Below, one piece after another: positions 1,846 to 5,427 of a DNA stretch of 64,000 nucleotides. The DNA lies in contig JAPOTE010000070.1 in the NCBI GenBank assembly GCA_026709335.1, positions 1-64,000 on the forward strand, read 5' to 3'. The stretch comes from Bacteroidota bacterium. Its GTDB lineage: Bacteria; Bacteroidota; Rhodothermia; Rhodothermales; Bin80. Below the pieces are notes generated by a model. That model did no database searches. It was not told the origin of the DNA and saw only the letters and a list, made by a program, of their open reading frames with translations. The position numbers and the translations under genes are program-made. The number at the start of each line of letters is the position of its first letter. Position 1 is the first letter of the stretch.

Positions 1846-2481
1846 ATGTGCACATCCCATTCTGACGACCAGCTATTAGCCGCTTATGCCGAGCGGGGGG
1901 ACCAATTTGCTTTTCAGCAATTGGTTCATCGTCACAAGGATCGTGTCTATGGTTTTATTCTGGGGATGGTTCATGATGCCGAGTTGGCAAATGATCTATT
2001 TCAGGATACCTTTTTGAAGGTCATTGATGTCATGCACCGCCGCCGGGGTGGCTACACCCCGCAAGGTCGATTTCTGGGGTGGGTCTTGATGATTGCTCGT
2101 AATGTAGTGTACGATCATAAGCGAAGTCGCAATAAGTGGAAGGATGTCGCAAATAGTGATGAAGAATACTGGGATCGACTTCCTGACAATGCAGAATCCC
2201 CCGACGAAGAACTTTATTCAAAACAGAGAAGTCAATGGTTGAATGCCTGCATTGAATCGTTGCCGCCTTCCCAGAGGGAGGTGGTATTGTTGCGACAGGA
2301 TGCAGGGTTAACATTCCGAGAAATTGCGGAGATCACAGGGGTATCGATTAACACTTCATTGGGGCGAATGAGGTATGCTCTGATTAATCTGAAGAAAATG
2401 ATGGATAAACAATCACGGCAGTATGCCCCCCAAGCTCAACAGATTGGGGATCAAAAAATGCCTGCAAGAACACATGCCTAA
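1846..2481 (+). CDS. ECF-type RNA polymerase sigma factor
   Basis: A 211-residue sigma-70 family protein of ECF type. Region 2 spans about residues 20-95 with the conserved FQDTFLKV and RFLGWVLMIARN stretches. Region 4 spans about 135-190 with LPPSQREVVLLR and the helix-turn-helix LTFREIAEITGVS. The open frame extends upstream to a TTG at 1786, but the ATG at 1846 gives a normal ECF N-terminus and is preferred. Its last codons overlap the next gene by 8 bases, a sign of translational coupling to the likely anti-sigma factor. The target regulon is unknown; the two exported proteins downstream are natural candidates. Confidence 0.93.
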   Translation: MCTSHSDDQLLAAYAERGDQFAFQQLVHRHKDRVYGFILGMVHDAELANDLFQDTFLKVIDVMHRRRGGYTPQGRFLGWVLMIARNVVYDHKRSRNKWKDVANSDEEYWDRLPDNAESPDEELYSKQRSQWLNACIESLPPSQREVVLLRQDAGLTFREIAEITGVSINTSLGRMRYALINLKKMMDKQSRQYAPQAQQIGDQKMPARTHA

Positions 2482-3046
2482 AAAAAATAAAATTCATACG
2501 GACGAAAAACTTCTTCTCATCCAGCATATTTATGGAGAACAGGTAAATGAAAATGAGTTGGGTGAGATTCTTTTGGTTCCCGAGAATCGGAAGGAATATG
2601 AAATATTGAAAAATGTGAAAGAAAAGTTGGAGAGTTCGTCTCTGCGTAAGCATACCTCTGTATCGGAGGAAGTCATAAAGCAAATCTTTTTGGCTGCTCG
2701 CCCCCAATCGCCACGTTATTGGTCCGGAATGACTCGTCGCCCAAGGCGACTTGTTCTACTGACCGGGATGGGAGCAGTCACCGCATGTGTACTTTTTATT
2801 TTATTTTCCAATAGGCCTCAGAGTGAGACCCCACGTCCAGAAATCAACCAGATATCTGATACAATAGAGTTGCAATGGGATGACACACAAGACCGTATAG
2901 AAATGCAACAGGCACTCAGTATCGTCCGTCAGCGAATCAATCCAGATTTATGGGATGAATCCGAAGTCATGAAGTTGGATTCGCTTCCAGATGTTTTAAC
3001 CAACACTCGCCGTGGTTTTGAAACTGCCAGTAACACTCCTCAATAA
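2474..3046 (+). CDS. Probable membrane-anchored anti-sigma factor
   Basis: A 190-residue protein with a charged N-terminal half (about 1-90), one transmembrane segment at about 93-112 (VLLTGMGAVTACVLFILF) preceded by Arg-rich RRPRR, and an extracytoplasmic tail of about 75 residues. The frame is open upstream to 2423, but the ATG at 2474 starts inside the sigma-factor stop region (ATGCCTAA) and is the natural coupled start. Topology and position match anti-sigma factors. No ZAS zinc motif (HxxxCxxC) is visible, so the role is inferred from context and layout, not from a recognised domain. The C-terminal tail would face the periplasm and could sense the exported proteins encoded next. Confidence 0.68.
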   Translation: MPKKNKIHTDEKLLLIQHIYGEQVNENELGEILLVPENRKEYEILKNVKEKLESSSLRKHTSVSEEVIKQIFLAARPQSPRYWSGMTRRPRRLVLLTGMGAVTACVLFILFSNRPQSETPRPEINQISDTIELQWDDTQDRIEMQQALSIVRQRINPDLWDESEVMKLDSLPDVLTNTRRGFETASNTPQ

Positions 3047-3061
3047 TCAATAATCAGTTCC

Positions 3062-3994
3062 ATGATGAAACAGATATTACCCATTTGTAACCTAATCTTG
3101 TTCATTGCATTTTTCGCCAGCAATGTTCACTCTCAATCCATTCTTTTTCAAAGTGACGGAGGCGAACTGAGTGTGAATGGGAATGTCATTGCTCTCGACG
3201 CCTTACCGAAAGATCTGGAATTTGGGGAGATAGATTTTAGTTTACAGGCCATTAGTACTTTTCCAATGCGAGTTGAAATCAATGGAAAGTCCTATGAAAT
3301 TTGGGAAGATCGAATTATTGCGGCGAGCGAAGCGGGGAATGTGCATTACAGGCTATCCATCGGTGCAGATGGCTCCTTTGTATCAGTAGAGTCAACAGGT
3401 GTTCTTGACTTCTATGGTATTGAGAACATACTATCTCGGCAAAATGGAGCCGTAATCTCTCCTGGAATGCAGATCTGGGATTCACTCGAGTATGTGGCCA
3501 ATTTACTTGCCCCAAGCCCTCCACCCCCCCCGACCCCTCTAAACCCTCCACCCCCCCCAACCCCTCCAAACCTCCTAGGGGCGGCACGCAAGTTTCAAGA
3601 TTTCGCTCTTTTTATACCTCAAAATATGGCTGCGTTACAACGGGGAGCAACAAAAATGCTACAATTTTCAAGTTATTTAACAAATGTCAGGGATGCGAGT
3701 GGAGAGTTATATGAATTACTTAGACATGAATGGAGGAAAGAAGCGGAGGCAATGGAGATGGCCAGAAAAGTTCGGATGATGCAACCAGGAGCCGAATACA
3801 ATGCAGCGATTGACGAGTTAGAGGAAAAGCTTACAGAAATATTTGTCATGAAACAGAAGAATCGGCGTATGGAGATTGAGCATCTGAAAGCGGAGCTGGA
3901 GGGAATGGAAGAGAGGTTAAAGGAACGACAGCGGGTCATGAGCCGTCTAATAGATGCGCGCTTGGATGAGCTCCTCTTGGATGCTAGACAATAA
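3062..3994 (+). CDS. Exported protein with proline-rich linker and C-terminal coiled coil
   Basis: A 310-residue protein of unrecognised family. It has a signal peptide (about 1-24, cleavage near NVHS|QS), an N-terminal domain (about 25-145) predicted to be beta-rich, and a short proline-rich linker at about 152-171 made of two copies of a nine-residue PPPPPTPxN unit. A strongly charged coiled coil follows at about 215-305. The last 80 residues resemble the end of the protein encoded at 4050-4733: ARKVR, IF..KQ, ELEgMEERlkeRQ and a terminal R.deLL pattern. It begins 15 bases after the probable anti-sigma gene, so it is likely part of the same transcript. Function is unknown; periplasmic location is inferred. 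Confidence 0.8.
   Translation: MMKQILPICNLILFIAFFASNVHSQSILFQSDGGELSVNGNVIALDALPKDLEFGEIDFSLQAISTFPMRVEINGKSYEIWEDRIIAASEAGNVHYRLSIGADGSFVSVESTGVLDFYGIENILSRQNGAVISPGMQIWDSLEYVANLLAPSPPPPPTPLNPPPPPTPPNLLGAARKFQDFALFIPQNMAALQRGATKMLQFSSYLTNVRDASGELYELLRHEWRKEAEAMEMARKVRMMQPGAEYNAAIDELEEKLTEIFVMKQKNRRMEIEHLKAELEGMEERLKERQRVMSRLIDARLDELLLDARQ
3517..3570 (+). repeat. Two tandem 27-base repeats with C8 tracts
   Basis: Two direct 27-base units (3517-3543 and 3544-3570) differ at two positions. Each contains a run of eight C residues. They encode the two PPPPPTPxN units of the exported protein at 3062-3994. A change in tract length would shift the frame before the coiled-coil domain. Confidence 0.9.
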
Positions 3995-4049
3995 ATAGAT
4001 TTCAAACAATCACTGTTCGTTTACTCTGTCACATCAATTCCATACAATC

Positions 4050-4733
4050 ATGAAATATCGATTAGTAGTCACGTTCACAGCATTGGCAGTCACTATATTT
4101 TTCTCCCATATTTTGGTTGCTCAGCATGATTCACTTGAAGTGAATTATGAAGTGGATTTCAGTTTAGAGGGAGATACCTTAATCATAAAGGAAGATACTT
4201 TAATCATAACCTATCCGGGGTACGGAGATTGGAGGAATGAGGAGAGGCACATGAATATAGAGCGTGAGATCATAGTCAAGCCCGACATGGATTCGATGAT
4301 CGTTATGGATTTGAGGCAGCATCCTCGGATGAAAATTCGTGTTCGCAGTCATGAAGAGCGGAAGATCCCAAGATTACTTCGGGACAGATCAAGGAATCAT
4401 GGACATGACGGACATAGGAAGGGACATCGTATAGTCACGGTTCATGGAGATTCACAGGAATTACGCAAAATGGAATCAGAGGCACGAAAATTGGCACGGG
4501 AAGTACGCCGAGCTGATGAAGATTCTTATGATGAGAAAAAAGCAATGCTTAGAGCGCAACTGGAGAAAATATTTGACTATAAGCAGGCTATGAAGATCAA
4601 GGAAATGGAACAAAAACGTAGCGAACTGGAAGAGCGGAGTAAAGTTATGCAGGAGCGTCAGAAAAACAGGGAAGCGATTATTGGAGATCGGGTAAATCAG
4701 CTTCTTGGTCGGGGATCATTGTATCGCTGGTAA
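4050..4733 (+). CDS. Exported charged coiled-coil protein
   Basis: A 227-residue protein of unrecognised family with a signal peptide (about 1-24, ending ILVA|Q). A short acidic region follows with an internal DTLII duplication, then a basic middle section rich in Arg and His (about 90-130). A C-terminal coiled coil occupies about 130-220 with the same pattern as the preceding gene product (ARKLAREVR, EKIFDYKQ, RSELEERskvmqeRQ, R.nqLL). It lies 55 bases downstream of that gene. The shared C-termini suggest the two exported proteins arose by duplication or bind the same partner. Association with the sigma/anti-sigma pair is from position only. Confidence 0.78.
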   Translation: MKYRLVVTFTALAVTIFFSHILVAQHDSLEVNYEVDFSLEGDTLIIKEDTLIITYPGYGDWRNEERHMNIEREIIVKPDMDSMIVMDLRQHPRMKIRVRSHEERKIPRLLRDRSRNHGHDGHRKGHRIVTVHGDSQELRKMESEARKLAREVRRADEDSYDEKKAMLRAQLEKIFDYKQAMKIKEMEQKRSELEERSKVMQERQKNREAIIGDRVNQLLGRGSLYRW

Positions 4734-4899: not shown

Positions 4900-5427
4900 A
4901 TGAGACCTGTTCAAGTACTCAGATCCGCAATTCGCACGGTCCCAAACTTCCCCAAACCGGGAATTCAATTCAAGGATATTACTCCTATCCTCTCTGATAT
5001 TGATCTCTTAAAGTTGGCAGTTGAGCAACTGGCTCTCCCATTCAAAGAGAAAAGAATTACCAAGGTAATTGGCGTTGAATCAAGAGGCTTTATTATGGCG
5101 CCTATGATTGCACTTGAATTAGGAGCCAGTTTCATTCCTGTTCGTAAGGAGGGGAAGCTTCCGCGTCAGACACGCAGTGTCTCATATGATCTGGAATATG
5201 GCTCTGCAACAGTTGAAATGCATATAGATTCTGTGTGCTCGAATGATCGAATCTTGATTCATGACGATGTACTTGCTACTGGTGGCACTGCTGCTGCTGT
5301 AGAGGAATTAATTGAGCGGAGCGGCGGGAAAATTATCGGGCTATCGTTTTTGATTGAACTCTCCGAGTTGAATGGTCGAGCAAAGTTGAAACACAAGGAT
5401 AAGGCGTGCTCAGTGGTGATGGTTTAA
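4900..5427 (+). CDS. apt: Adenine phosphoribosyltransferase
   Basis: A 175-residue type I phosphoribosyltransferase of normal Apt length. The N-terminus has the Apt signature around FPKPGIQFKDITPIL (17-31), then GVESRGF (58-64), and the PRPP-binding motif ILIHDDVLATGGT at 118-130. It makes AMP from adenine and PRPP in purine salvage in the cytoplasm. About 166 bases separate it from the upstream coiled-coil gene, so it probably has its own promoter. A hairpin lies four bases after its stop codon. Confidence 0.96.
   Translation: MRPVQVLRSAIRTVPNFPKPGIQFKDITPILSDIDLLKLAVEQLALPFKEKRITKVIGVESRGFIMAPMIALELGASFIPVRKEGKLPRQTRSVSYDLEYGSATVEMHIDSVCSNDRILIHDDVLATGGTAAAVEELIERSGGKIIGLSFLIELSELNGRAKLKHKDKACSVVMV

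Follow-up and report, generated by a model that had tools for sequence, protein, structure and literature searches.

What do two exported proteins do at the end of an operon headed by an ECF sigma factor gene: do they act on the sigma factor switch, or are they simply among its products? The question is raised by a four-gene cluster in the window, the stretch of 64,000 nucleotides analysed here, which is part of a 2.8-Mb assembly and for which the order examined was Rhodothermales. The cluster lies on the forward strand between two genes that we take, by their sequence alone, to be radA-like (446-1789) and apt-like (4900-5427). It consists of a sigma factor gene (1846-2481, ATG start at 1846, stop at 2481), a gene for a protein with one transmembrane helix (2474-3046, ATG at 2474), and the genes of the exported proteins P3 (3062-3994) and P4 (4050-4733). 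The sigma gene and its neighbor overlap by 8 bases; this overlap and the cluster itself had been described in a sequence-only reading of the locus, and both hold after re-checking of the coordinates. The 211-residue sigma protein matches Sigma70_r2 (3.7e-12) and Sigma70_r4_2 (8.8e-12) in Pfam and sigma70-ECF (4.6e-29) in NCBIfam, and with regions 2 and 4 as its only Pfam regions it belongs to the ECF (group IV) sigma factors. In other genera, an N-acetylmuramoyl-L-alanine amidase gene is often found between the cluster and apt (for instance, L131:6922-8181).

P3 and P4 both start with an N-terminal signal peptide (ending in VHSQ and LVAQ, respectively) and finish with a helical-hairpin (coiled-coil) domain. 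In P3, this domain (3617-3982, residues 186-307 approximately, as delimited by alignment A1 and the AlphaFold2 helices) is preceded by an additional beta domain (residues 24-111) and a proline-rich linker (approximately 3509-3577), an architecture that the sequence-only reading had correctly picked out. In P4, a low-confidence, Arg/His-rich amino-terminal part precedes the hairpin (4443-4730, residues 132-227), which ends in Y-R-W, an instance of the conserved carboxy-terminal pattern [YLF]xW; the tryptophan is the invariant last residue in 20/20 aligned P4 sequences (alignment A2). The Arg/His-rich stretch, which had also been pointed out before, is indeed present, but it is local to the genus and falls outside the conserved core. 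The AlphaFold2 models, which are of monomers only and were built from 16-sequence alignments, give pLDDT values of about 70-88 for the P3 N-domain and 79-97 for its C-domain, with a low-confidence linker; the P3 helices span residues 171-212 (confident only in its later part), 214-238 and 244-309. The corresponding block in P4 comprises helices 132-154 and 157-218 at pLDDT 86-98. In some congeners the P4 orthologues are enlarged to 365-468 residues, and one of them (L093:3679-5085) has an apparent tandem duplication of the helical domain.

The C-domains of P3 and P4 are homologous. The two window sequences are 33% identical over 79 residues (blastp E = 3.5e-7 for this one pairwise comparison), and the order-wide profiles of the two domains align in hhalign with a probability of 99.6, an E-value of 2.2e-24 and a score of 129.9. 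When the columns of the P4 profile were shuffled in blocks of seven, a procedure that preserves the heptads, the score averaged 26.2 and did not exceed 40.6 in 60 trials; the likeness is thus not due to coiled-coil composition. A match between the C-termini, to be judged by HHalign, had been proposed from the window alone, and the profile similarity is there. The shared pattern had been assigned to the last 80 or so residues; the pattern is real, although the domain that carries it is larger, with about 90-110 residues folded into a short helix and one of about 60 residues. P3 and P4 have no credible family match in Pfam or NCBIfam, including to the RseB family or a peptidoglycan-binding domain, and the shared domain has no match in Pfam, nor among solved structures by sequence or by fold.

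The domain is widespread within the order and is almost always found near a sigma factor. P3 matches occur in 58/59 relatives from 15 families; some of these are to the N-domain, and C-domain matches are found in all families of the order. P4 matches occur in 42/59 relatives. A genome scan with a peptide pattern from P3 gave no match, whereas the C-domain fragment as query did. When 395 genomes of the phylum were searched by profile, 65 contained the domain: the 44 sampled Rhodothermales genomes without exception, two genomes belonging to a different family within the class, and genomes from three families in another class, with a small number of weak matches besides. Orthologues are also present in cultured bacteria with complete genomes, among them Roseithermus sacchariphilus (L174). 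Of the 123 domain-bearing open reading frames examined, 114 have an ECF sigma gene on the same strand less than 4.5 kb upstream of them; of the remaining nine, seven sit at a contig end, which leaves 116 testable copies with 114 linked to a sigma gene. Homologues occurring regularly away from sigma factors, a possibility raised at the outset, are therefore nearly absent. The two exceptions represent a single paralogue confined to one genus (L167:3909-5303 and L285:4021-5271), with proteins of about 416-464 residues that end in GKSLWDF.

The gene order is also conserved. Wherever the contig reaches, genomes of the order have the sigma gene, the single-transmembrane protein gene and P3, in some cases followed by P4; the other class has the sigma gene, a single-transmembrane protein gene and then one coiled-coil protein gene; and the plan recurs, with a miniature version of the second protein, in L164 and L165, which are from another family within the class of the window. 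P4 is missing in many genera, so P3 alone must suffice there.

The second gene of the cluster probably encodes an anti-sigma factor with a cytoplasmic N-domain, one transmembrane helix and a periplasmic tail. The cytoplasmic domain of the window protein matches no anti-sigma family in Pfam or NCBIfam, and has neither an ASDI model match nor a zinc motif. Our assignment draws on the 8-base overlap with the sigma gene, on syntenic orthologues and on syntenic counterparts in the other class: the HxxxCxxC motif of ASDI anti-sigmas is present in these transmembrane proteins at 7/15 loci, and one further protein (L163) matches zf-HC2. The ASDI zinc motif is known to appear and disappear within groups (PMC7406223). 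The assignment also draws on the tail, where a motif of the form LQWDD, helix, LWDE (2870-2959, residues 133-162) is conserved; W135 and W160 are invariant in alignment A4 (12 sequences from the order). Across lineages, [LIP]xW[DE] leads into an amphipathic helix, and the second tryptophan is kept within the order. In L164 and L165, the counterpart is 118-129 residues long and, unlike ASDI proteins, has hardly any cytoplasmic domain, but it retains the transmembrane helix and a tail in which LEW[DE] precedes a helix; the most constant part of the anti-sigma is therefore its periplasmic tail. Likewise, the anti-sigma profiles of the two classes align over the tail motif only, and weakly so (E = 0.0045, probability 7.8), with no alignment of their cytoplasmic parts. 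Retention of a tryptophan-acid-helix motif beside diverged cytoplasmic domains is as expected of a binding element.

Upstream of the cluster is a predicted ECF promoter (1796-1820) with CAATAA at 1796-1801, a 15-base spacer and CGTT at 1817-1820; CGT is the customary -10 box of ECF sigma factors (PMC8103513). Of 70 orthologous loci, drawn from two classes, 58 have the element CAATAA-N13-16-CGTT ahead of the sigma gene, where base shuffling of these upstream regions gives an expectation of 0.58; the 58 are related loci and not a count of independent events. A few loci have CAATAT or AAATAA in place of CAATAA, and the element is retained where the flanking DNA has diverged. These observations suggest autoregulation, with the operon probably transcribed from a promoter driven by its own sigma factor. 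In the window genome, exact matches number 8 versus 6 for a reversed control, and the sigma operon has the only one in a clear promoter position, so this operon may be the main target of the sigma factor. A regulon could not be derived from the other seven, which are inside or antisense to longer open reading frames or have no open reading frame after them (L188); the L186 element is 253 bases before an open reading frame, yet within another gene.

Taken together, we favor a reading, with a probability of roughly 0.6, in which the cluster is an autoregulated ECF sigma/anti-sigma module whose exported hairpins act on the anti-sigma tail. The sigma factor would transcribe its own operon from CAATAA-N15-CGTT, and the single-pass protein would retain it at the inner membrane. 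P3 and P4, once exported, would supply input and feedback from the periplasm: the hairpin domain common to both would bind the tryptophan-acid-helix motif of the tail, and this contact would control release of the sigma factor, by a conformational change or by gating proteolysis. The released sigma factor would then produce more of all four proteins, and because P3 and P4 are themselves sigma products, the unit would reset itself. From the features computed here (gene order and its conservation, C-domain homology, tail motif and promoter element) we infer anti-sigma activity, promoter use, binding of P3 and P4 to the tail, the direction of control and the signal. The steps of hairpin-tail contact and sigma release are modelled on the precedents of RseB and CnrX. 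The sequence-only reading had likewise seen a switch, apparently for envelope stress or surface sensing, in which the exported pair might bind the anti-sigma tail, and it finds partial support in the sigma linkage (114/116) and in the conserved tail motif, with the binding step and the kind of signal as predictions. The association of tail and coiled-coil proteins is a co-occurrence along one gene order, and as such it fits direct binding and co-regulation alike.

The closest parallel is the RpoE-RseA-RseB system of the Escherichia coli envelope stress response, in which an ECF sigma factor, a single-pass anti-sigma and a periplasmic regulator are encoded in that order in one autoregulated operon, and in which RseB binds the periplasmic domain of RseA (PMC8103513). 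Unlike RseB, P3 and P4 have an all-helical hairpin domain and, in many genera, occur as two related copies; the tail motif of the anti-sigma also differs, and the cluster has no adjoining gene for a DegS/RseP-type protease.

The main rival explanation is that P3 and P4 are output, namely helical periplasmic chaperones or scaffolds similar to Spy or Skp, which make no contact with the anti-sigma while some other signal releases the sigma factor. Since this operon has the sole clearly promoter-positioned exact site of the window genome, P3 and P4 may be the main products, and long periplasmic helical hairpins suit chaperones; Skp does appear when the P3 and P4 models are compared with the PDB by Foldseek, but only at E > 1 in a search that gave no significant match. 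CpxP and Spy are small exported helical proteins under an envelope regulator, and CpxP feeds back on that regulator; they belong to a two-component and not an ECF sigma system, and have no sequence or fold match to P3 and P4. We consider the output reading somewhat unlikely, because it leaves unexplained why the tail motif is kept while the cytoplasmic domains have diverged or shrunk, and why the domain is nearly absent away from anti-sigma genes. Another idea, that the coiled-coil proteins serve cell-wall maintenance and just happen to share a transcript with a sigma factor reporting on the wall, draws on the Amidase_3 gene found in at least 35 of 66 order loci, many of the others being incomplete. 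This is improbable, given that no amidase gene occurs in the window cluster or at any of the 16 loci examined in the other class while the core of sigma, anti-sigma and coiled-coil genes is kept, and that P3 and P4 lack a wall-binding domain (see above).

A far less probable explanation is metal sensing of the CnrX type, in which the exported helical proteins would bind metal and relay this to the anti-sigma. The arrangement does resemble the cobalt/nickel system CnrYXH of Cupriavidus, with its ECF sigma factor, membrane anti-sigma and helical periplasmic sensor (PMC7689651), the mini anti-sigmas of L164 and L165 recall the short CnrY in layout, and P4 has its Arg/His-rich stretch. However, CnrX is anchored in the membrane, binds metal and belongs to a different family, and the gene order differs, whereas P3 and P4 each carry a signal peptide and show no detectable similarity to it. 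No Metal_resist/LTXXQ family is among the Pfam families listed for 41 domain sequences, and CnrX, Spy, CpxP and ZraP are absent among the listed Foldseek PDB hits of the P3 and P4 monomer models. The histidine-rich stretch is limited to the window's genus, and the residues conserved in the domain are E, L, F, K, Q, N and R, without clusters of His, Cys or Met. Lacking a family signature and conserved ligands in P3 and P4, metal sensing was rejected.

A further and rather doubtful reading is a competition of tails, in which a single groove of the hairpin would be filled by the protein's own C-terminus or, alternatively, by the tail of the anti-sigma, and the state of the envelope would decide which partner is bound, thereby freeing or holding the sigma factor. 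The coiled-coil proteins end in [YLF]xW-COOH in the window lineage and in Y-L-x-W-[DE] in the other class, and the anti-sigma tails contain similar motifs: LQWDD in the window, LLDWE in the other class and LEW[DE] in L164 and L165. When scored with a matrix of the other-class C-termini, the first tryptophan of the anti-sigma tail is, at 10/15 loci, among roughly the best-scoring 3% when set against 382 background tryptophan sites, and the second is mostly unremarkable; since the scored sequences are related, the likeness is suggestive only. The terminal tryptophan is not found in every P3-only lineage. Competition of this kind, if true, would amount to control of a membrane anti-sigma by peptide mimicry. 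The C-terminal YxW was also considered as a DegS-like PDZ ligand and discarded, as one residue follows the tryptophan in most proteins of the other class and the neighborhood showed no gene of the HtrA type.

The combination of an ECF sigma factor, a membrane anti-sigma and a periplasmic partner is of a kind already known. We found no description of this operon in the open-licence PMC literature, which covers the field in part. Nor do the same literature, Pfam, NCBIfam and the PDB, taken at their incomplete coverage, seem to describe the partner domain, its strict association with sigma genes, the promoter motif or the tail motif. The unit looks like a hitherto undescribed means of monitoring the condition of the cell envelope. 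With it comes a widely conserved and apparently undescribed family of periplasmic domains that is linked to ECF signalling nearly without exception, and this in a phylum whose ECF sigma factors seldom lie beside recognised class I anti-sigmas (6% in Bacteroidetes; PMC7406223). Both the promoter and the binding motif proposed here can be tested.

The promoter element also occurs before other genes in relatives. CAATAA-N14/15-CGTT precedes GLPGLI/Porph_ging genes in three genera (L192:1500, L209:1500 and L210:1500), which are possible further members of the regulon; the readable GLPGLI genes of the window genome have the element in none. In two genera, it precedes a different ECF sigma gene, similar between the two (L217:1500 and L232:1230), and a sigma cascade is possible there. 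In addition, the beta N-domain of the P3 type heads a family of exported proteins of about 410-480 residues (L145:4150-5738, L146:3252-4493 and L147:3061-9289). One genome (G008) has four such proteins in tandem, and in another (G009) a decayed anti-sigma tail is found just 5' of one of the genes, which suggests that this family arose by duplication of the operon.
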